NCBI RefSeq assembly: GCF_003260015.1
Contig: NZ_QCXS01000003.1
Location: 1-64,000, forward strand
Source: Nakamurella deserti
GTDB taxonomy: Bacteria; Actinomycetota; Actinomycetes; Mycobacteriales; Nakamurellaceae
Direction of reading: 5' to 3'
Length of the DNA stretch: 64,000 nt
The notes under the pieces: model-generated
Told to the model about the DNA's origin: nothing
What the model saw: the letters and a program-made list of their open reading frames with translations, nothing else
Database searches by the model: none
Shown here: positions 23,826-40,301 of the stretch, piece by piece
How the letters are laid out: every line of letters starts with the position of its first letter
Position numbering within the stretch: the first letter of the stretch is position 1
Program-made: the position numbers and the translations under genes

Positions 23826-24422
23826 TCAGCGACGGGAGGCCGTGGCGGCCGACAGCAGCCGGGCGAAGGCCAGCGCGTCCTGCAGCGCGGCGGCGCCCTC
23901 GGCGTCGGCGCTGATCCGCAGGGCCAGGTCGTCACCCGCCAGGGTGCCGGTGTAGCCGTGGTCGGCGTCGCACTGCGGGTCACCGCAACCGGCCACCTCC
24001 AGGTCGACCCGGGACACCCCGCCCCAGCCGATCGTGAGGGTGATGTCGCGGCCGCTGAGGTCGTTGGCGCGGCGACGCGCCGGGTACTCGGCCGGCTTGC
24101 CGACGACGTGCGTCAGCATCACCGTGCGGACCGCGTTGAGCGGCACCGCCTCGGACGTGGCCACCCCGTGGGCGTCACCGCTGTGCTCCTCGTCGCCCGC
24201 GTGGTCGTCCGCGTGGACGAAGATCAGCCGGTTCGGCGTGAGCACCAGCACCGACAGGTGCCGTCGGATGGTGTCGGCGTCGAAGGTGGTCTCGCCGTGC
24301 ACCAGGTGCCCGGAGACCTCCTCGCCGGCCAGCGCCACGTCCAGCACGTCGGTGACGAAAGCCGGGTAGTAGCCCGCCTTGTCGATCTGCTCGGCGAGCC
24401 GCTTCGGCAGCGTGGCGCTCAT
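23826..24422 (-). CDS. DUF5998-like conserved actinobacterial protein
   Basis: A 198-residue protein that I take to be the actinobacterial DUF5998 type because it precedes the phosphodiesterase gene and has the pattern of a small cytosolic beta-rich protein (LSVLVLTPNRLIFVHADDH, NAVRTVMLTHVVGKP, DITLTIGWGGVSRVDLE). Two Cys in AGCGDPQCDAD may bind a metal, though this is speculative. The function is unknown. The 28-base gap after it on the coding side leads to pheT, whose stop is at 24451, on the same strand. Confidence 0.7.
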   Translation of the reverse strand: MSATLPKRLAEQIDKAGYYPAFVTDVLDVALAGEEVSGHLVHGETTFDADTIRRHLSVLVLTPNRLIFVHADDHAGDEEHSGDAHGVATSEAVPLNAVRTVMLTHVVGKPAEYPARRRANDLSGRDITLTIGWGGVSRVDLEVAGCGDPQCDADHGYTGTLAGDDLALRISADAEGAAALQDALAFARLLSAATASRR

Positions 24423-24450
24423 CGCCGGGCTCCCGGCCCCGGGCGGCGGC

Positions 24451-26945
24451 TCATCGCAGCACCGCCCCGAACTCGCGGGCGGCCGCCTCCACCACGGCGT
24501 CCCGGACCTGTTGCGCGTCGGCGCCGGTCAGGGTCCGGTCGGCGGCGCGCACGCTCAGCGCGAACGCCAAGGACTTGTGCCCCGCCGGCACCGGATCCCC
24601 GGTGTAGACGTCGAACAGCCGCACCGATTCCAGCAGCGGGCCACCGGCCCGGCGCAGCACCTCGGTCACGCGGCCCGCGGGCACGGTGTCGGCGACCACC
24701 AGCGCGACGTCCTGCAGGACCGGCGGGAACGACGAGACGACCGGTGGGACCACCGGGCGACGCTCCGGGAACCCGGACAGGTTCAGCTCCAGGGCGACCG
24801 TGCGGGCGGGCAACCCGAGGCGCTCGATGACCGCGGGGTGCAGCTCACCGGCGTAGCCGACCGGCCAGTCACCGACCCGGATACCGGCGCAGCGACCGGG
24901 GTGGAACGGTGCGAGCTCCGCGGTCTCCACCCGGAGCTCGGCGCCGGCGGTGCGGCCGATCCGGCGGGCGAGCTCGACGGCGTCGGCCCAGTCGGCGGCA
25001 CGGCCGGGACCCCACCAGCCCGCGCGGTCCCACTGTCCGGTGAGCACCGCCCCGACGTGCTGCACCTGGGTCGGCACGCTGGCCTCCAGGACGCGGAGGT
25101 CGTGGTCGGACGGGCGGGCACCGACGGTCATCACCGGGGGTCGCGGGGCGTCCGGCCGCGGCAGGAAGACCAGCCCGAGCTCGAACAGCGCGACGTCACG
25201 CGCACCCCGGGCGAGGTTGCGCGACAGCGCCTCCAGCAGTCCGGGCAGCATCGTGGTGCGCATCAGGGGCCGCGCGGAGTCGAGCGGGTTGAGCAGCGTG
25301 GCGGTGCGCCGACGGATGTCGCTCTCGTCGATGCCGAGCGCGACGAAGTCCCGCGGTCCGATGAACGGGAACGTCAGCACCTCGGTCAGTCCGATCGCGG
25401 CGAGATCCGCGGCGACCGCACGGGTACGTCGCTGGGCGGAGCTCAATCCGGCGCCGGCCGGGGCCTGCGGCAGCACCGAGCCGATGAGATCGAAGCCGTC
25501 GAGACGGGCGATCTCCTCGACCAGGTCGGCCGGACGCAGCAGGTCGGGCCGCCAGGTGGGCGGGGTGACAAGGAGCGCGTCACCGGACTCCGACGCCTCG
25601 ACGAGGCATCCGACCTGCACGAGCCGCCGCGCGGCGGTCTCGGCCGACACCGGCCGACCGAGCAGCCGTTCCGGCTCCGTCAGCGGGAGCGCGACGGTGG
25701 CCGGCGGGTTCGGTGCGCCGACGTCGGTGCGACCGGGTTCCAGGTGACCGCCGCCGTAGCGCACCAGCAGTTCCGCGGCACGCTCGGCCGCGCCCGGCGC
25801 GACGGCGGGGTCGACGTCGCGCTCGAAGCGGCGCGACGCCTCGGACGTCAGCGACCGCCGGCGGGCGGTGCGGGAGATGACCGACGGCGTCCAGTGCGCG
25901 GCCTCGATCAGCACCTCGGTGGTGGTCTCGGAGATCTCGGTGCTCGCACCGCCCATCACCCCGGCCAGTGAGATCGCGCCGCTCGGATCGGCGACGACGA
26001 GGTCGGTGGCGTCCAGGGTGCGGGCGACACCGTCCAGGGTGACGAGCTTCTCGCCCGGAGTGGCGCGCCGGACGGTGATCGGGCCCGCCAGGGTGGCGGC
26101 GTCGAAGGCGTGCAGCGGCTGGCCGACCTCGAGCATCACGTAGTTGGTGATGTCCACGGCGAGCGAGATCGACCGGATGCCGGCGGCGAGCAGCCGACGG
26201 CGCATCCAGTACGGGCTCCTGGCCGACGGATCGACTCCGGACACCTTGACGACGACGAAGCGGTCGCAGCCGGCCGGGTCGTCGATGGTCACCGGCCAGG
26301 GGACGGGCGCGCCGGCGACGTCGCGGATGTCGGTACCGGCGACGTCGGTGAACGGCACCTCGAACGCCGCCGACAGCTCCCGGGCGAGGCCACGGATGGA
26401 CAGCGCGTAGCCCCGGTCGGGGGTGATCGCCAGCTCCAGCACCGTGTCCGTCGCCCCGACCAGCGGGCGGGCGTCGGCGCCGATCACGGCGGCGGGGTCG
26501 TCGGCGTCGAGCACGATGATGCCGTCGGAGTCGTTGCCGACCCGCAGCTCCGCGGCCGAACAGATCATCCCGTCGGAGATGCGGCCGTAGGTCGACCGGG
26601 ACGCGATCGCGAAGTCACCGGGCAGCACCGCGCCCGGGAGTGCAGCGACGACGAGGTCACCGACGGCGAAGTTGCGGGCGCCGCAGATGACCTGGCGCTC
26701 GGCCGAACCGTCGGCGCCGAGCCCTGCACCGACCTCGAGCGTCACGAACCGGATGGGCTTCTTGAACCCGGTGAGCTCCTCGACGGCCAGCACCCGGGCC
26801 ACGACCAGGTCACCGGTCGTCGGTGGTGGTGTGTGCACGTCCTCGACCTCGTGACCGATCCGGATCAGCGCGGCCTCGATCTCGGCGACACCGACCTCGT
26901 CGGGCAGGGCCACGTACTGCCGGATCCACTCCAGCGGGGCGCGCA

Positions 26946-26946
<1 letters not shown>
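24451..26946 (-). CDS. pheT: Phenylalanyl-tRNA synthetase beta subunit
   Basis: Forms an alpha2-beta2 enzyme with PheS that charges tRNA-Phe. At 831 residues it has the typical multi-domain layout: an N-terminal start, an EMAP-like tRNA-binding domain (GDLVVARVLAVEELTGFKKP onward, about residues 45-150), the B3/B4 editing domain in the middle, the B5 domain, a catalytic-like core, and a C-terminal anticodon-binding FDX-ACB domain (FPPVLQDVALVV). The ATG overlaps the pheS stop by one base (TGATG). The longer open frame upstream is the pheS region in another frame. Confidence 0.97.
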
Positions 26947-28799
<1,853 letters not shown>

Positions 28800-28838
28800 G
28801 CGGCGCCGACCCCGGTTCCACGGCTCCCGGATACACGA

Positions 28839-28888
28839 CGGTCGTGGCGGCCCCCCCCCCGCGGTGGGGGGAGGAGCCGCCACGACCG
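28839..28888. terminator. Strong bidirectional hairpin between convergent genes
   Basis: A perfect 13-bp stem (CGGTCGTGGCGGC / GCCGCCACGACCG) encloses a second stem of six C pairing with six G (28855-28860 with 28866-28871), beside a run of ten C. It lies between the stop codons of the PemK-like gene (+) and the SpoU methyltransferase gene (-), so it can terminate both. There is no long U-run. Confidence 0.75.
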
Positions 28889-28915
28889 GCGGAAACGGTG
28901 CGGTGTCGACCGGGG

Positions 28916-29812
28916 TCAGGACTCCCGGCGCTGGGCGGACGCCGAGGCGTACAGGCAGATCGCCGCGGCGGTGGCCAGGTTCAGCGACTCGGCCCTGCCG
29001 TGGATCGGCACCCGGACCGAGGCGTCGGCGGCCTCGATGACGTGCCCGGGCAGTCCGTGGGCCTCGGATCCGAACAACCAGGCGGTCGGCAGATCCAGGA
29101 CCCCGTCACGTGCAGCGGCGTCCAGATCGGTGTCGGCCGACCCGGTCGTCGCCAGGACGGACAGGCCGGCCCCGGCGAGGGCGGCGAGCACCTCGTCCAC
29201 GTCGACCGCGCGGGCGACCGGCAGGTGGAAGATGCTGCCGACCGAGGCCCGCACGGCCTTGGGGTTGAACGGATCGACGGACTCCCCCGCGAACACGACG
29301 GCGTCGGCGCCGGCGGCGTCGGCCAGCCGTACGACGGTGCCGGCGTTGCCGGGATCGTTGGCGTCGACGAGCACGGCGACCAGCTTCGCGCCGTCCCCGA
29401 GCGCGCGGGCCAGTGGCACGTCCAGCGATGCGCACCGGGCGATCAGGCCCTGCGGCGTCTGGGTGTCGCTGAGCAGTTCCATGGCCCGCCGGTTCACCAC
29501 GCTCACCTCGACGTCGGCGGCGTAGGCCGCGCGCACGAGGTCGACGTGCCGGGCGGCGGCGTCGGGGGTGACGAAGAGTTCGAGGACGATCCCGGGATGC
29601 TCCCGCGCGTAGGCCAGCGCTTCGGTGACGGCCTGGGCGCCCTCGGCGAGGAACTCCCCCGCCTCGGTGCGCCGGGACCGGCGCAGCAACCGGTGCGCGG
29701 CGGCGACCCGCGAGCTGCGCTCGGTGAGGACACCGTCGCCGTTGACCTCGGTCTCGTCGTCGGCAGTGGTGAAGAAGTCGGCGTCCTTGGCCGACGAGCC
29801 CGACTTCGTCAC
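28916..29812 (-). CDS. TrmH/SpoU family RNA 2'-O-methyltransferase (tsnR-like)
   Basis: A SPOUT methyltransferase that probably modifies rRNA or tRNA with S-adenosylmethionine. The 298-residue protein has an N-terminal substrate-binding domain (about 45-110) and a catalytic domain with LVAVLVDANDPGNAGTVVRLADAAGADAV (motif 1), WLFGSEAHGLP (motif 2) and VRVPIHGRAESLNLATAAAICLY (motif 3). The first roughly 25 residues look like a variable leader, so the GTG at 29812 is likely but not certain. It follows rplT by 98 bases, as in other actinobacteria where it is called tsnR. Confidence 0.9.
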   Translation of the reverse strand: MTKSGSSAKDADFFTTADDETEVNGDGVLTERSSRVAAAHRLLRRSRRTEAGEFLAEGAQAVTEALAYAREHPGIVLELFVTPDAAARHVDLVRAAYAADVEVSVVNRRAMELLSDTQTPQGLIARCASLDVPLARALGDGAKLVAVLVDANDPGNAGTVVRLADAAGADAVVFAGESVDPFNPKAVRASVGSIFHLPVARAVDVDEVLAALAGAGLSVLATTGSADTDLDAAARDGVLDLPTAWLFGSEAHGLPGHVIEAADASVRVPIHGRAESLNLATAAAICLYASASAQRRES

Positions 29813-29910
29813 CGGGAGACCGGTGGCGTCCCGGCCGCCCGGCGTGGTGCGTCCGACCGGCGGACCGGCCGGACGCTCACGACGGGGGCGGGAGCCACCC
29901 TGGTGCGTAC

Positions 29911-30300
29911 TCAGGCGGCGTCGCTCGTACCGGCGCCGGCCAGGCTCGGCACCGCGTCCCGGGCGATCGCCACGAGCGCGGCGAACGCCGCCGCGTCGCG
30001 GACGGCGAGCTCGGCCAGAATCTTGCGGTCGACCTCGACGCCGGCCAGGTTCAGGCCCTGGATGAAGCGGTTGTAGGTGATGCCGTTCGCGCGGGCGGCC
30101 GCGTTGATGCGGGAGATCCACAGCTTGCGGAACTCGTTCTTGCGCTTGCGACGGTCGTTGTACGCGTAGTTCAGGGAGTGGAGGACCTGCTCCTTGGCCT
30201 TGCGGTACAGCCGCGAGCGCTGGCCGCGGTAACCGGCCGCGCGCTCCAGGGTCGTGCGGCGCTTCTTCTGGGCGTTGACCGCCCTCTTGACGCGAGCCAC
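29911..30300 (-). CDS. rplT: 50S ribosomal protein L20
   Basis: Large-subunit protein needed for early 50S assembly, and often the autoregulator of the infC operon. The 129 residues include the basic N-terminal extension ([19 protein letters not shown]) and the conserved [19 protein letters not shown] and YNRFIQGL segments. A C-terminal Ala-rich tail of about ten residues is longer than in E. coli. Translation starts at GTG 30300. The gene follows rpmI after 143 bases. Confidence 0.98.
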
Positions 30301-30443
30301 GGTGGCACCTGTCTTTCTACTTCGTGCTCACGCCGCGACCTCGGGTCGGACGGCGGAGCGGGATTCTGGGATGGGGTCGTGCGGGTGGCCGGTGGAACCG
30401 GCGGCGTGGCCCGGAGGCCGGTGGTGGAGCAGCAGACCTGAGG

Positions 30444-30638
30444 TCAGCGACCGAGCATCCGCTTGACGCGGGGCACGTCGACCTTGGCCACGTCGGTCGT
30501 CCCGGTCAGGCGCCGGGTGCGCTTGCTGTTCTTGACCTCGAGCAGGTGGCGCTTGTTCGCCTGCTCGCGGACGAGCTTCCCGGAGCCGGTCACCTTGACC
30601 CGCTTCTTCATCCCGGAGTGGGTCTTCATCTTGGGCAT
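30444..30638 (-). CDS. rpmI: 50S ribosomal protein L35
   Basis: Small basic ribosomal protein, 64 residues, with the family start [18 protein letters not shown] and a C-terminal VKRMLGR. Its length and sequence are typical. It lies between infC and rplT in the standard infC-rpmI-rplT order, 82 bases after infC. Confidence 0.98.
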
Positions 30639-30720
30639 GTCGTTCCTCGTCTCTCAGCCCGTCCGCACGCGGACAGGTGCCGGCTGGCTGCCGGCGGGTG
30701 GTTCAAGTGGATGTGCTGGA

Positions 30721-31809
<1,089 letters not shown>

Positions 31810-32165
31810 TGAGTCCTCCTGAAGACGGTGATGTTCGGGTGGCGCTGTGCTGCGGCCGGTCGGCCGCGCCAGAGGCGTCACCACCGGTACAACGGACCGC
31901 AGAATGCAAAAAGTCCCGCTGCCGAAGGCAACGGGACCCGATTCCACCCCACCCGGCACGCCGGGAAGGCAATACAGCGGACAGGAACGGCATCGTCGCA
32001 CCACCTCGCGGTGGGCGGGAGGACACCGGCCCGGAATGCTGGACCGAACCCGGCCGCCGGAGGCAGCGCGGGTGGGAGTCGGGCTCCACTTGCAGTCTGT
32101 GCGAGGCGTCCGGGGCTGATCTCACGATTTCGTCCTGGACACTCGCACCTGAGAGTCTAGCGCAT
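31810..32165 (-). other. infC operon leader region, gene-free
   Basis: About 355 bases between the divergent infC and DUF1844 genes. It contains the infC ribosome-binding site (AGGAGGA) and, about 100 bases before the start, a strong terminator-like hairpin with a U-run (31908-31937). The open frames across it are not homologous to anything I recognise. A transcript leader for the infC-rpmI-rplT operon is the most likely content. Confidence 0.6.
31908..31937 (-). terminator. Intrinsic terminator/attenuator in the infC leader
   Basis: On the minus strand an 11-bp stem (GUCCCGUUGCC / GGCAGCGGGAC, one G-U pair) with a three-base loop is followed directly by UUUUU. This is the clearest intrinsic terminator in the window. 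It lies before infC, not after a gene on this strand, so transcription attenuation of infC-rpmI-rplT is likely. The Bacillus infC operon is known to use an L20-dependent attenuator. Confidence 0.7.
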
Positions 32166-32534
32166 GTGAACCCGCCAGCAGAACTCCGTCCCGAGCACCC
32201 GCAACCGACCGGCCCGGCCGAGCGGGACCTGGTCGACATCCCCGCCGTCGAGGTGGTCTCACGGGCCGCGGTGATGCTGATGAGCGCCGCCGCCGAGCAG
32301 CTCGGCCTCGCCGACGAGGACCCGGACCGGCCCGCGCACCGGGACCTGGACGAGGCGCGCACCCTCATCACGGCCCTGGCCGGGTTGCTCAACGCCGCGC
32401 TCCCCGACCTGGGGCCCCACGCCGCGGCGTTCCGCGAGGGGCTGGGCGCGTTGCAGGGCGCCTTCCGGGAGTACTCCGCCGTCCCCGACCAGCCCGGTCA
32501 GGGTCCCGGCGAGAGTCGTCCCCGCCCGCACTGA
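32166..32534 (+). CDS. DUF1844 family protein
   Basis: A 122-residue acidic helical protein of unknown function. The family pattern is seen in VSRAAVMLMSAAAEQLGLADED and LDEARTLITALAGLLNAALPDLGPH. DUF1844 genes commonly sit next to infC in actinobacteria. GTG at 32166 is the first usable start (ATG at 32164 runs straight into a stop). It is divergent from infC. It ends with a Pro/Gln/Arg-rich tail. Confidence 0.82.
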   Translation: MNPPAELRPEHPQPTGPAERDLVDIPAVEVVSRAAVMLMSAAAEQLGLADEDPDRPAHRDLDEARTLITALAGLLNAALPDLGPHAAAFREGLGALQGAFREYSAVPDQPGQGPGESRPRPH

Positions 32535-32558
32535 CCGCCGGGGGTCGGTCGGCCGAGC

Positions 32559-33157
32559 TCAGCGGCGGCGCTTGCGACCGCCGCCCTGGGCGGCCTTCTC
32601 GCGGTCGATGATCTCCAGCCGGCCCAGTGGCCGGTTCGGGTCCTCCGCCGGGACGGGCGTCCGCTGCCGCCGGGTCTGCGGCGGCGCGTGGTGGTCGTAC
32701 AGGGCGCGCACCTCGCGCAGGGCGACCACCGCGCGTTCCTTGTCCATCGACTGGATGGCCATCACCGACATGACCTCGTCGTCGGCGAGCTCCAGCTGCG
32801 CCCAGACGGCGCCCTCCGGAAACGAGATGCGCTCGATCACCGGCCACGGGACGAAGCGCTCACCGACGATGTTGCGCACCCGCAGACCGTGCGCGTCGGC
32901 CCGCAGCCGCGGTCGGGCGGTGAGCATGATGCCGCCGGCGAACAGCAGCCCGAGGCCGGCCATCGCGACGGCGTCGGAGGTGCGGAAGTAGACCCCGGTG
33001 TCGGAGCCGCGCAGCTTGAGCGCGACGAAGACCCCCACCAGGATGACCGCGGCGGCCCCGATGGCGGCGTAGACGGCGATGCGTCGAGGTCGGACCGTCA
33101 CGGCCCCGGGGGTGGGACCGGTGGCCGGGGGTGCGGCCGGATGCGGCTGGTCGGACA

Positions 33158-33158
<1 letters not shown>
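32559..33158 (-). CDS. PH-domain-containing membrane protein
   Basis: A 199-residue protein with two transmembrane helices (about residues 28-48 and 60-80) and then a bacterial PH-like domain (ARPRLRADAHGLRVRNIVGERFVPWPVIERISFPEG). The C-terminal tail is basic (RKRRR). The cytosolic domain follows the membrane part. It overlaps the ribH stop by one base (TGATG), so it is co-translated with the riboflavin genes. A comparable gene follows ribH in mycobacteria. The function is unknown. Confidence 0.82.
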
Positions 33159-34988
<1,830 letters not shown>

Positions 34989-34992
<4 letters not shown>

Positions 34993-35630
34993 GCGGGGAC
35001 GCTCCCGTCGGGAGCGGTGCCGCGGGTGGTGCCGAGCAGCCGCTCGACGTACTTGGCCATCACGTCGACCTCGATGTTCAGGCGGTCGCCGGGACCGCGG
35101 CCGCCGAGGGTGGTGGCGGCCCGGGTCTCCGGGATGACGCCGATGCCGAACTCGGCGCCGGTGTCGGTGTCGTGCACGTCGACCACGGTCAGCGAGATGC
35201 CGTCGATGGCGATGGCACCCTTGCCGGCGATGTAGCGGGCCAGCTCGGGTCCCACCGCGATGCGGATCTCGTCCCAGGCGGGATGCGGGGTGCGTGACGC
35301 CAGGGTGCCGACGCCGTCGACGTGGCCCTGGACGACATGGCCGCCCATCCGGGTCGTCGGGAGCACAGAACGCTCGAGGTTGACCGCGTCACCGACGGCG
35401 AGGGCGCCCAGGGTGGTGCGGGACAGGGTCTCGGCCATCACATCGGCGGTGAAGGTGCCCGCAGCACGGTCCACGACGGTCAGGCACACACCGGACACCG
35501 CGATCGAGTCGCCGTGACCCGCGTCGTCGGTGACCGTGGCGGCCCGGATGGTCAGGCGGGCTGAGTCGCCATCGGCGGCGAGGGTGAGGTCGAGCACCTC
35601 GCCGCGTTCCTCGATGATGCCGGTGAACAC
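34989..35630 (-). CDS. ribE: Riboflavin synthase, alpha chain
   Basis: Dismutates two lumazine molecules to riboflavin. The 213-residue protein shows the two-barrel repeat: MFTGII at the N-terminus, VSGVCLTVV, then [11 protein letters not shown] and [11 protein letters not shown] in the second barrel. The GTG at 35630 begins the conserved FTGIIEE motif and has AGGAGGA eight bases upstream. It opens a three-gene riboflavin operon. I looked for an FMN riboswitch before it and did not see one. ribD is not next to it. Confidence 0.96.
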
Positions 35631-35741
35631 GTGCCATTCCTCCTGCGGACGGGGCGTCCGTGCGTGACGGACCGGCGCGGCCGAGCGGCGGCGCCACCGT
35701 CCAGTCTCCCCCATCGACGCGGCGGTCCGGTCGGATCGTCG

Positions 35742-37787
35742 TCACACCCCGGGTCGGGCCGGGGTCGCGGTCCCGCGGGTTCCCGTCGCGGCGACGTGCA
35801 GCGCGTCGGTGGACCGCTCCCCCACCCCGGCGTGGGCGGGCGACGCCGCGCCGGCGGGCGCCCCGGCGTCGGCCGGCGCCCCGACGGCGGCGGGCACTGC
35901 GGGACCGGCGGGCGCCGGGGCCGCGGCGGGCACCGGGGCGGCGGCGGGCACGGCGGCGGCGGGCACAGTGGCGGCGGGCGCGGCGGCGGCGGTCGGCGCG
36001 GTAGGCGGTTCCGCGTCGGCGGACACCGGCAGCCGGACGGTCAGCCGGGTGCCCGCGCCCGGCGGGCTGGTCAGCTGCAGGTCACCGCCCAGGACGTCCA
36101 CCCGGTCGAGCAGACCGCGGATGCCCGTGCCGAGGTCGACCGAGGCACCGCCGACCCCGTCGTCCTGGACGTCGACGGTGAGCAGGTGGCCGCGCCGGAC
36201 GACGTGCACCGACACCTTCCCCGCGTGGGCGTGCTTGACCACGTTGGCGACGGCCTCGGCGACCACGAAGTAGGCGGTGCTCTGCACCGGCATCGGCAGC
36301 GGTCCGACGCCGCTGACCCGCAGCACCGACCGCAGCGGCACCCGGTCGAGCAGGTCCTCGGTGGCCAGGGCCAGGCCCCGCTCGAGCAGGGCCGACGGCA
36401 TCACCGCGTGCACCAGGGCCCGCAGTTCGGCCGCGGCGGCGTCGATGCCGTGCCGCAGCTCGGTGGCCTGCACCCGGGTGTGGGCACCGGGGGCCAGTTC
36501 GTTGGCGACCTGCTGGGCCTCCAGGGCCAGCAGCACGAGTTTGACCTGCAGGCCGTCGTGCAGGTCCTGGGCGATCCGGCGGCGCTCGCGGTCGGCCGTC
36601 TCGACGATGCGCTCCCTCGACCGACGCAACGACTGCTCGGTGACGTGCAACGCGGCGGTCAGCCGCTCCCGGTCGACACCGAGGGCGACGACCCGACCCG
36701 CGGCGCGGACCAGCTCGGGGTCGTCGATGAGCTCCGCGTCGTAGATCACCGCGCCGATGGGCTCGCCGGACAGCTCGATGGTGACCACGCCGCGCGCCTC
36801 GGACGCCTCGGGCATCTCGACCCGCAGGCCGTCGGCGTCGACGTAGCGCTGCTCGTCCGGGACCCAGAACACCAGCTGCAGGCTCGGGTCACCCAGCACG
36901 GACGCCAGCGCGATCCCCAGGCGCGACCGCCGGTCGTCCCGGGCGCTGAGCCATTCCGACAGCTCCTGCAGCTCCCCGGTGCGGGCGAAGCCACCGCGGA
37001 ACACCGCCAGCGCGAACGCGATGGGGATGCCGGCCAGCAGGATGTTCTGGGTGCCGTCGGTGATCACCTCGGGGACGCCGAGTCCCCGTCGCAGCACGTT
37101 GGCCGAGAACGGGACCCAGAGCGCGGTGAGGATCCCGTAGGTGAACAGGGGGATCAGCACCCGGCGTTGGAACGGCCTGGCGCGGCGGAGCCGGCCGACC
37201 AGCAGGACCGTCGTCGCGACCATCGCCAGCGCGCCGGACGCCGACTGGACGATGCCGAGCCCGTGGTGGAGTCCGGGACGATCCGCGACGAACAGCGGCA
37301 GGTCGGACTGCCGTCCGTCCAACGCCCACTTCGGTATCTGCAGGACGAAGGACACCACGTAGACGCAGACCACCGTGATCACCGAGAAGCGCCCCCGGAG
37401 ACGACCGGCCGGGAAGGCGTGCAGCAGGTGCACCAGCACGGCCAGTTGGGCGGCGCCGAACTCCGCGCCGATCATCGCCAGCCACGGGGTGTCGGAGCCG
37501 CTGGGGGCGGACAGCAGGAAGCTGAAACCGCCCCAGACGAGCAGGGCCCCCAGCCCGTTGCCCGGTCGACGCCACCAGGCGAAGATGCCGGCTCCCGCCC
37601 ACAGCACACAGGTCGGGAAGGGGACCAGGGCCCACCAACCGGGCAGACCTTCCGCGACCATCACGGCGAGCAGCACGCCGCCGGAGACCAGCACCCCCAC
37701 GGCCACCAACAGCAGGGCGCGTCGCTGCGAGCGCAGCAGGTCCGACCTCGGCGGTCGCGGCGCCGCGACCGCCGGGTCGGCATTCAC
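35742..37787 (-). CDS. Membrane sensor histidine kinase (NarL-partner type)
   Basis: A 681-residue membrane kinase. About six to eight hydrophobic segments fill the N-terminal 260 residues. A PAS/GAF-like region (about 270-390) follows, then the HisKA_3 dimerisation part RERRRIAQDLHDGLQ with the phospho-accepting His near residue 410, and an HATPase domain (AVANVVKHAH; GTGIRGLLDRVDVLGG). About 85 C-terminal residues are an Ala/Pro-rich tail (AAAPAATVPAAAVPAAAP). The GTG start overlaps the response regulator stop, so the pair is co-translated. The signal is unknown. Confidence 0.92.
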   Translation of the reverse strand: MNADPAVAAPRPPRSDLLRSQRRALLLVAVGVLVSGGVLLAVMVAEGLPGWWALVPFPTCVLWAGAGIFAWWRRPGNGLGALLVWGGFSFLLSAPSGSDTPWLAMIGAEFGAAQLAVLVHLLHAFPAGRLRGRFSVITVVCVYVVSFVLQIPKWALDGRQSDLPLFVADRPGLHHGLGIVQSASGALAMVATTVLLVGRLRRARPFQRRVLIPLFTYGILTALWVPFSANVLRRGLGVPEVITDGTQNILLAGIPIAFALAVFRGGFARTGELQELSEWLSARDDRRSRLGIALASVLGDPSLQLVFWVPDEQRYVDADGLRVEMPEASEARGVVTIELSGEPIGAVIYDAELIDDPELVRAAGRVVALGVDRERLTAALHVTEQSLRRSRERIVETADRERRRIAQDLHDGLQVKLVLLALEAQQVANELAPGAHTRVQATELRHGIDAAAAELRALVHAVMPSALLERGLALATEDLLDRVPLRSVLRVSGVGPLPMPVQSTAYFVVAEAVANVVKHAHAGKVSVHVVRRGHLLTVDVQDDGVGGASVDLGTGIRGLLDRVDVLGGDLQLTSPPGAGTRLTVRLPVSADAEPPTAPTAAAAPAATVPAAAVPAAAPVPAAAPAPAGPAVPAAVGAPADAGAPAGAASPAHAGVGERSTDALHVAATGTRGTATPARPGV

Positions 37788-38434
37788 GAGCGGGCCAGGT
37801 ACTTCAACACCGCCAGCACGCGTCGGTGGCCCTCGTCGTCCACCGACAGTCCCAGGGCGTCGTAGATCCGCGACGTGTGCTGGACGACCGCCTTCTCGGT
37901 GACCACCAGCGCGGCGGCGATCGAGCTGTTGCTGCGCCCCTCGGCCACCAGGGTCAGCACCTGTCGTTGCCTGGGCGTCAGCCGGGCGATCGCCCCGTCG
38001 TCCTGGCCGGCCCGCGCCACCATGATCTCCACGACCTCGGGGTCGATCACCGCCCCGCCGACCTGGATCCGGCGGAGGTCGGCGCAGAAGGTGTCGACGT
38101 CGGCGATCCGCTGCTTGAGCAGGTAACCCACACCGCGGCGCTTCTCCGCCAGCAGCTCGACCGCGTAACGACGCTGCACGTACTGGGACAACACGACGAC
38201 CGCCATCTCGGGATGGCTGCGGGCGATGGTGAGCGCGGCGACCATGCCCTCGTCGCTGTGCGTCGGCGGCATCCGGACGTCGGTGATGACCAGGTCGGGC
38301 CGGTGCAGCTCCGTCAGCGCCAACAGGCCGGGGCCGTCGTCGGCGGCGGCGGCGACCTCGAAACCCGCGCTCTCGAGCACCAGGGTGAGGCCCCGCCGGA
38401 GCAGGACCTCGTCCTCACCGATGACGACCTTCAC
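37784..38434 (-). CDS. NarL/LuxR family response regulator
   Basis: The 216-residue partner of the kinase. It has a receiver domain with acidic residues EDE at 7-9, the phospho-acceptor D52 in VITDVRMPP, and the conserved Lys in GYLLKQR. A LuxR-type helix-turn-helix follows (LTPRQRQVLTLVAEGRSNSSIAAALVVTEKAV, about 150-185). Start is GTG 38434 with GAGGAG eight bases upstream. The same frame stays open through the upstream repeat region, but the receiver begins exactly here. It precedes the kinase gene. Confidence 0.94.
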   Translation of the reverse strand: MKVVIGEDEVLLRRGLTLVLESAGFEVAAAADDGPGLLALTELHRPDLVITDVRMPPTHSDEGMVAALTIARSHPEMAVVVLSQYVQRRYAVELLAEKRRGVGYLLKQRIADVDTFCADLRRIQVGGAVIDPEVVEIMVARAGQDDGAIARLTPRQRQVLTLVAEGRSNSSIAAALVVTEKAVVQHTSRIYDALGLSVDDEGHRRVLAVLKYLARS

Positions 38435-38690
38435 GCGTCGCTCCTCGCACGGCATCCGGCGGATGCGATGTGCACCCCGCACCAGTGTCGGTGCGGACCC
38501 GGAATGCGGAATAGACCCAGGTCCCGGCCCCGCCCGGGCCGGCCGATAGTACCGTCCGGGGACGGAGTCGGACCAGGCGGCGAACGCACCGGCAGGGCTG
38601 TCGTAGGGACGGCGGAGCCCCGGCGCGAACCGCGCCACGTCGAGACGAGCCGGCAACGTCGACGCGGACCGGTGGCGATGCGGAGCACAC

Positions 38691-38836
38691 CGGCGGCGAT
38701 GCGGAGGGAACCCGCGGCGACGCGGAGCACACCGGCGGCGATGCGGAGGGAACCCGCGGCGACGCGGAGCACACCGGCGGCGATGCGGAGGGAACCCGCG
38801 GCGACGCGGAGCACACCGGCGGCGATGCGGAGGGAA
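38691..38836. repeat. 42-bp tandem repeat, three perfect copies plus 20 bases
   Basis: The unit CGGCGGCGATGCGGAGGGAA + CCCGCGGCGACGCGGAGCACAC repeats exactly at 38691, 38733 and 38775, then a partial copy ends at 38836. Each unit is itself two related 21-base halves. A further partial copy lies just to the left (about 38665-38690). The identity of copies suggests recent expansion. It is minisatellite-like, without spacers. Confidence 0.9.
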
Positions 38837-38859
38837 GCGGCGCACCCCGGCGCGAACCG

Positions 38860-39110
38860 GCTGGCGCGGCGCAAACGGTCGGGACCCACCAGCGAACCGG
38901 CGGAGCCCCGAGGGAACCGGCGGGCGCGGGGCCGACCGGCGGGGCCCGCAGCGAACCGGCGGGGTCCCGAGCAAACGGGCGGGGGCCCCGAGCAAGCCGG
39001 CGGAGGTCGCGGTCGACCAGCCACGCGCGAAGCGCACCGGCGGGGCCGGCAACGGACCGGCGGAGTCCGCAGCGAACCGGCGGGATCGAAGCGACCCGGC
39101 GGCGTCACGG
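38860..39110. repeat. Degenerate array of AACCGGCGG-centred units
   Basis: The motif (A/G)ACCGGCGG or a close variant recurs about ten times at roughly 20-25 base intervals (for example near 38897, 38918, 38957, 39058 and 39076), separated by variable CCCCGAG-type fillers. It looks like an older, diverged minisatellite next to the perfect 42-bp array. Confidence 0.6.
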
Positions 39111-39245
39111 CGCGGCCACCACCCGACGACCACCGCGCGGCGGACAGGGCCCAGGTCTATGGAGGAGGTGGACCTCTCGTCCCTACCGTCCCTTGACCCT
39201 GTCGAACAGGCCACGATCGAGTGGCGTCATCCGGAAGGCTCCACC

Positions 39246-39629
39246 ATGACCACGTCCGTCACCTCCGTCAAGCGCCCCGTCCTCGTCACCGTGCTCGTCG
39301 TCCTGATCGTGCTGAGTGGCATCTCGTCCGTGTTCACGGCCGTCGTGCTGTTCGGCCTGCCGGGCCCGGCGGTCGTGGCGGCCGTGTTCGCGCTCGTCGT
39401 CGGTCTCATCCACTTCGCGGTGGCCAAGGGGCTGCTGAACGGCAACCCGACGGCCCGTGCGGTGGTCGCCGTGGTCAATGTCGTCCAGGCCGCGGTGGCC
39501 ATCGTGACGCTGGTCAACACCGACGGCACCCTGCAGTCGTCGGCTCTGCGGTCACTCGTCTTCGCGGTCGTCGTGCTGGCCGTCCTGTCGACGCCCGCGG
39601 CCAACGCCTTCTTCGCCCAGCGCCGCTGA
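39246..39629 (+). CDS. Small four-helix membrane protein of unknown function
   Basis: A 127-residue protein with about four hydrophobic segments (VLVTVLVVLIVLSGISSVFTAVVLF; AVVAAVFALVVGLIHFAVA; AVVAVVNVVQAAVAIVTLV; LRSLVFAVVVLAVL). There are short loops and no enzymatic motif. ATG 39246 is preferred (GGAAGG eight bases upstream); an upstream in-frame start at 39159 would add 29 hydrophilic residues. It faces the two-component genes across the repeat region. No function is assigned. Confidence 0.78.
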   Translation: MTTSVTSVKRPVLVTVLVVLIVLSGISSVFTAVVLFGLPGPAVVAAVFALVVGLIHFAVAKGLLNGNPTARAVVAVVNVVQAAVAIVTLVNTDGTLQSSALRSLVFAVVVLAVLSTPAANAFFAQRR

Positions 39630-39638
39630 GCCGCCGCG

Positions 39639-40301
39639 TCAGCGCGCGGAAGCCGCCAGCCGTCGCAACGCGCCGACGGCCCGGCCCGGGTCGTCGGCGC
39701 CGTAGATCGCCGACCCGGCCACGAAGCAGTCGGCGCCCGCCTCGGCGGCGAGGGCGATGGTGTCCTCGGCGATCCCGCCGTCCACCTCGACGACCACGTT
39801 GAGGTGGCCGGTGTCGACCAGTGAGCGGGCCTGCCTGATCTTGGCCAGCATCTCGTGCTGGAAACTCTGACCGCCGAAGCCCGGCTCCACCGTCATGATC
39901 AGCAGCGTGTCGTAGGACCGCAGCACCTCCGACCAGTCGTCCAGCGGGGTGCCCGGCTTGAGCGACAGTCCCGCCTTCGCGCCCGCGTCGCGGAGACGCC
40001 CGGCCAGCCGCACCGGGTCGCCGGTGATCGCCTCGGCGTGCACGGTCACGTTGTAGGCGCCGGCCTCGGCGTAGCCGACCGCCCACCGCTCGGGGTCACT
40101 GATCATCAGATGGCAGTCCAGGGGCAGATCGGTGGCCGCGTGCAGCGACTTCACCACGGGCAACCCCAACGTCAGGTTGGGCACGAAGTGGTTGTCCATC
40201 ACGTCCACGTGCAGCCAGTCCGCGTCGGCGACCGCAGCGGCCTCCTCCCCCAGCCGGGCGAAGTCGGCGGACAGGATGGACGGGGCGATCAGCGTCTGCA
40301 C
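39639..40301 (-). CDS. rpe: Ribulose-phosphate 3-epimerase
   Basis: Interconverts ribulose 5-phosphate and xylulose 5-phosphate in the pentose phosphate pathway. It also supplies the substrate of RibBA. The 220-residue TIM barrel has [10 protein letters not shown] at the N-terminus, [12 protein letters not shown] and the phosphate/metal motif [14 protein letters not shown], then VEVDGGI. The GTG at 40301 is chosen for its AGGG site eight bases upstream and family length; GTG 40310 is an alternative. It is near the riboflavin genes, as in mycobacteria. Confidence 0.95.

Follow-up and report, generated by a model that had tools for sequence, protein, structure and literature searches.

In E. 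coli, IF3 controls its own gene, infC, through a non-AUG start codon. The infC-rpmI-rplT operon of B. subtilis is preceded by a leader in which binding of L20 stabilises a terminator (PMC6097659; PMC10931766). L20 leaders have evolved repeatedly and in unrelated shapes, their signature being an AA dimer and two consecutive G-C pairs involved in docking, and a survey of 20 new ribosomal leaders omits the actinomycete infC leader (PMC7247131). Among actinomycetes, an AUC start has been published for Streptomyces infC (PMC5472188). L20-like control of M. tuberculosis infC, whose 326-nt 5' UTR has a UTR/CDS read ratio of 2.6 during exponential growth and 4.9 in stationary phase, was suggested by analogy (Arnvig 2011, PMC3207917). 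We found no description of an attenuator role for the actinobacterial infC leader in the searchable literature, outside which most subscription journals lie.

The locus studied here lies in a 64,000-nucleotide stretch of Nakamurella deserti DNA (hereafter the window). On its minus strand, infC (positions 30721-31809, 362 aa, Pfam IF3_N and IF3_C) is followed by rpmI (30444-30638, ribosomal protein L35, PF01632), rplT (29911-30300, ribosomal protein L20, PF00453) and a SpoU methylase gene; upstream lies a divergent DUF1844 gene. The infC gene has no ATG and starts with AUC at 31809-31807, preceded by a Shine-Dalgarno sequence, AGGAGG, at 31820-31815 on the same strand. This start is kept as ATC in 178 of 181 related infC genes, a likeness to the non-AUG start used in E. 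coli autocontrol; the latter, however, works on translation, a layer apart from a transcription attenuator. Mechanical ORF calling stretches infC on the minus strand up to a GTG at 32004, across leader and terminator (31809-32004), but the true start is likely the AUC at 31809. A misannotated upstream start of the same kind has already been published for Streptomyces infC. The IF3 domains end at residue 167 and are followed by a long tail (30721-31300, minus strand) rich in Pro, Ala, Ser and Arg; in relatives, the infC open frames, measured from the frame and not from the start, span 186-468 aa.

The initial annotation had pointed to a hairpin with an 11-bp stem and a U5 tract about 100 bases before infC, within a gene-free leader. 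Both points hold: the gap between infC and the divergent DUF1844 gene contains an intrinsic terminator hairpin on the minus strand (31939-31911, GGGTCCCGTTGCC-TTC-GGCAGCGGGACTT) with five T's at 31912-31908, and its end lies 98 nt from the infC start codon. The stem measured 13 bp, and two T's of the U-tract can extend it. Its predicted folding energy was -23.7 kcal/mol against a mean of -12.0 for shuffled sequences (z = -5.0), and none of 200 shuffles folded as well. Read on the plus strand the hairpin has no U-tract, so the element is directed toward infC. A lax scan of positions 24,000-40,000 returned three terminator-like sites, of which the infC-leader hairpin had the most pairs (13); the remaining two, with 10 and 7 pairs, lie on the plus strand at about 30,507-30,624, where rpmI is on the minus strand. 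As 2.4 sites are expected by chance in such a 16-kb scan, the evidence is the position and the folding energy of the hairpin, not the number of sites.

We then compared the infC upstream regions of the window's genus and of many other actinomycetes, and found one common architecture. From its 5' end the shared leader comprises a -10 box, about 7 nt, CGACC, a variable hairpin, CAAGyGGAG...CUCCCACC, CCCG...CGGGU and CGGUC; variable hairpins follow, then a GC-rich hairpin usually with U's, about 50-140 nt, and AGGAGG-AUC. In the window, the leader measures about 240 nt from the predicted start to the terminator. The -10 box, TAGACT (32154-32159, minus strand, predicted start at about 32148), was recognised from the sequence and from relatives: a sister leader reading TACCAT-GTCAGGT-GCGACC aligns with TAGACT-CTCAGGT-GCGAGT in the window. 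By raw count, 165 of 180 leaders have a TANNNT box 6-14 nt ahead of their 5' end, in 163 of these at 6-9 nt, and this narrow spacing is telling support for a leader promoter.

The terminator recurs as well. In the set of 180 leaders, which includes many Streptomyces and whose members are not independent, 126 had a hairpin followed by a U-rich tract between the conserved core and infC, where dinucleotide shuffles would give 28, and terminators of -18 kcal/mol or better numbered 80 in the leaders and 3 in the shuffles. About a third of the leaders had no good U-tract by the criteria used, and a strict terminator finder overlooked many hairpins of relatives with imperfect U-tracts. Among the 17 genomes of the window's genus, counted by hand, a terminator with U-tract was present in 11, a hairpin with a weaker tail in 4, and it was lost in 2. 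Two leaders of this genus (L021 and L117) retain the switch strand described below, while the terminator 3' arm and U-tract are apparently gone, which suggests a loss of attenuation.

To describe the conserved core, a covariance model (R1) was built from 24 sequences, the window being excluded and species of its genus included. In the window's genome, R1 had a sole match at E-values up to 1, at 32125-32038 on the minus strand (56.2 bits, E 1.6e-7), corresponding to a four-helix junction, P1-P4. In an even draw over the class Actinomycetes, R1 matched 196 of 296 genomes (84 of 106 genera), nearly always once per positive genome; an enlarged model, R2, whose training includes the window and whose weakest matches were not inspected singly, reached 218 of 296 genomes and 91 of 106 genera. 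When R1 was applied to a draw over the phylum, all 26 positive genomes belonged to the class Actinomycetes. By this comparison, the leader is a structured RNA that recurs across the class.

The helices come from a MAFFT alignment made without structure (A1) and folded with RNAalifold, in which 10 of 21 pairs showed double changes. In the second alignment (A2, about 97-98 sequences), which was fitted to the model so that its figures are favoured, 96.4% of pair cells held standard pairs, 12 of 21 pairs had changed on both sides, and the covariation score was 0.346 against 0.123 for shuffles and at most 0.073 with slid partners. Within the core, AAG, GG, UCCC, ACC and GGU are invariant (AAG and GG in 97/97). 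Helix P3 (G-y-GGAG with CUCCC, 32074-32089) is supported by the alignment and pair counts, and helix P4 (ACCCG...CGGGU with an inner stem, 32048-32073) by pair counts, both on the minus strand. In contrast, P1/P2 are divergent in the window, which counts against our preferred explanation: where a GACC/GGUC closing helix is usual, the window leader has a strong predicted 5' hairpin (TGCGAGTGTCC...GGACGCCTCGCA, 32100-32147, minus strand), diverged from relatives, that replaces or competes with the usual P1/P2. No conserved leader peptide was seen by eye across relatives.

The 5' strand of P3 belongs to the switch strand GCAAGTGGAGCCCGA (32079-32093, minus strand), recognised by its invariance and by the folds of truncated transcripts. 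When only the sequence through the terminator 5' arm was folded, that arm took the CAAGyGGAGyC strand as its partner, both for the window and for the majority of about 36 leaders. The predicted antiterminator of the window joins GCAA-GU-GGA-G-CCCGA to UCGGG-UCC-CG-UUGC in 12 pairs (duplex energy -17.0 kcal/mol); it is imperfect, with a GU/CG internal loop and a bulged G. Its 3' strand, TCGGGTCCCGTTGC (31928-31941, minus strand), overlaps the terminator 5' arm. We propose that CAAGTGGAG is a candidate switch element, paired with the terminator arm in the antiterminator, and that CAAGUGGAG is a candidate antiterminator strand. In the predicted folds, the antiterminator is present in transcripts that end within the terminator and is replaced by the terminator once the 3' arm has been made. 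P3 alone was predicted at -4.4 kcal/mol and the terminator at -22.4 kcal/mol; P3 would thus hold out against the antiterminator only if assisted, whether by P4 stacking, by the order of folding or by a ligand.

The antiterminator pairing covaries between species. Across 63 distinct leaders, the duplex of a leader's own strand with its own arm came to -15.7 kcal/mol, against -13.4 for swapped partners and -9.7 for letter-shuffled strands (own versus swapped, Wilcoxon p = 3e-7, shared ancestry ignored); the effect is moderate because the conserved strand is common to all leaders. When the partner was sought across the whole downstream region, the own combination was better by only 1.3 kcal/mol (p 3.5e-4, shared ancestry again ignored), and for 30 of 45 the best freely chosen partner took in part of the terminator 5' arm. 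Pair types differ at several positions between leaders, and compensation is visible between the window, where GAGCCC faces GGGUCCC, and its sister L113, where GAGUCC faces GGAUCCC. Streptomyces leaders (L033, L045 and others) carry an extra hairpin, GGCGGUGCUCC...GGAGCCCCGCC, that overlaps the terminator 5' arm and is a possible second antiterminator. In some leaders, those of Streptomyces excepted, the terminator 3' arm can pair with a CCCC loop of P3; this pairing was dropped.

These observations suggest the following mechanism. Transcription would start about 210-220 nt upstream of the terminator, and the nascent leader would fold into the P1-P4 junction, with CAAGyGGAG paired to CUCCC in P3. 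As long as P3 lasts, the downstream GGGyCCCG... segment would be left free to form the terminator, and the polymerase would halt before infC. Without a stable P3, CAAGyGGAGyCC would pair with the same segment in an antiterminator of about 12 bp, allowing read-through. The signal would most likely stabilise the P3/P4 junction and hence repress, a direction of control that we infer. Comparison thus places a promoter upstream, a terminator before the gene and a mutually exclusive antiterminator, as in attenuators generally. The initial annotation had read the hairpin as an attenuator in which L20 or another signal shifts the leader between termination and read-through. Its switching part gains strong support from comparative sequence evidence: the leader, its -10 box and its terminator are conserved, and the covarying antiterminator is incompatible with P3 as well as with the terminator. 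L20 as the signal is held only tentatively. The conserved -10 box, about 220 nt upstream of the hairpin, speaks against a start site downstream of it, a finding that would have refuted this annotation. All together, the hairpin quite probably acts as the terminator of an attenuator that precedes infC-rpmI-rplT and switches transcription as proposed.

The closest described system, the L20 leader of B. subtilis (RF00558), resembles this locus in operon, in leader position and in opposing a terminator to a competing fold, and differs in sequence and shape. The Firmicutes L20 model had no match in 41 genomes, including the window's, in a search that did detect the B. subtilis positive control. By these comparisons, the element appears to work like the Bacillus infC attenuator, yet falls outside the RF00558 family. 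By analogy, the ligand may be L20, to which we give slightly less than an even chance, the rest going to another ligand or to none. The AA and consecutive G-C pairs of the L20 signature are invariant in the leader, but in so G+C-rich a leader the likeness is not discriminating.

The same attenuator might well answer to another signal, such as L35, IF3, some further ribosomal protein, a small molecule, or how fast the RNA is transcribed or folds, a serious possibility to which we give rather less than an even chance. The absence of a match to the Firmicutes model fits this reading, and feedback by IF3 through the AUC start is already possible (PMC5472188). Moreover, the second A of CAAG is invariant in the model-based alignment although it is paired in only 14 of 98 antiterminators and lies outside P3; it may thus be read by a ligand, a point that indicates some partner and not which one. 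Against another signal speak the operon order and leader position, which are those of B. subtilis, where L20 acts (PMC6097659), and the repeated evolution of L20 leaders in unrelated shapes (PMC7247131).

No convincing match to the leader core was found among the sites of the rRNA operon: the best R2 match there, in what we read as 23S domain VI, scored 9.9 bits (E 0.39). An AAGUGGG stretch that precedes the GTPase-centre region of 23S rRNA and is part of the L20 site (H40/41) looked suggestive, but the 3.2 kb of 23S in the rRNA locus hold seven copies of AAG[UC]GG and the best R2 match lies elsewhere, so mimicry is not claimed. That 9.9-bit match, near the 3' end of 23S (L132:138-244, minus strand), reads UAAGCGG...CUCCCACCC...GGGGGU, with the same words in the same order as the leader; it is probably due to chance.

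A leader that is a constitutive partial terminator, or a stabilising structure, with no ligand control and with its conservation reflecting promoter and folding needs, is unlikely. The loss of the terminator in some relatives is compatible with it, as is the hypothetical nature of any ligand; a fixed terminator, however, would not need a covarying antiterminator whose strand is invariant in the core.

That the leader is an independent trans-acting sRNA, the hairpin being simply its 3' end, is very improbable, even though Rfam files its Streptomyces counterpart, Scr1601 (RF02830), as an sRNA gene and attenuated leaders can act in trans elsewhere, as in a cited Listeria case (PMC3207917). A search of the window against Rfam at the gathering threshold gave no match; against the Scr1601 cut-off of 100 bits, the window scored 15.2, Kitasatospora 42.6 and Streptosporangium 33.7, all below it. 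In Streptomyces loci, the Scr1601 model scored 169 and 164 bits and spans the leader from its 5' end to the U-tract. R1, trained with the window excluded, matches both the window core and the Scr1601 region of a Streptomyces locus (L033). Scr1601 thus occupies the same infC leader, overlaps the R1 core and has its 3' end on the terminator U-tract; it differs in its filing and in an Rfam structure line that has no antiterminator pairing between CAAGuGGAG and the terminator. Judged by sequence and position, Scr1601 is the Streptomyces version of the infC leader. Two observations argue against a free-standing sRNA. All 50 loci kept for the best genome-wide matches contained infC, and in 49 of them, every locus in which the core was placed, it preceded infC by 174-302 nt and was oriented alike (in the fiftieth, L154, a simple motif failed to recognise the core). 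Further, a plain sRNA would not need a built-in antiterminator.

It is scarcely credible that the hairpin ends read-through from the riboflavin-synthesis (rib) operon, whose genes, with a PH-domain gene, do lie upstream on the same strand, since the divergent DUF1844 gene intervenes, the hairpin lies about 620 nt past the last upstream gene, and in many lineages a counterpart stands between core and infC, the leader itself opening with a -10 box.

On balance we lean slightly towards a class-wide IF3-L35-L20 attenuator of the Actinomycetes, in which CAAGyGGAG would serve both as ligand core and in the antiterminator, and in which the ligand would be either L20, bound through an architecture unlike that of known L20 leaders, or some other ribosomal ligand with no known role in the control of this operon. 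Such a regulator may bear on M. tuberculosis, which also has a long and abundant infC 5' UTR, and premature termination would give an excess of the kind reported there (PMC3207917). The passages on this UTR describe homology with the infA 5' UTR and mention no shared structure, terminator or antiterminator (PMC3207917); with about one R1 match per genome, infA apparently falls outside the family as defined by R1.

With this reading, a hairpin that had gone unnoticed and an RNA listed as a Streptomyces sRNA come together as a single regulator of the IF3-L35-L20 operon, one that is open to test and offers exact switch strands for mutation; the class concerned includes major antibiotic producers and mycobacteria. 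The attenuator offers an explanation for the over-represented M. tuberculosis infC 5' UTR. The leader may also represent a separately evolved form of ribosomal-protein feedback at this operon, and as such would be useful for comparing how RNA leaders evolve.
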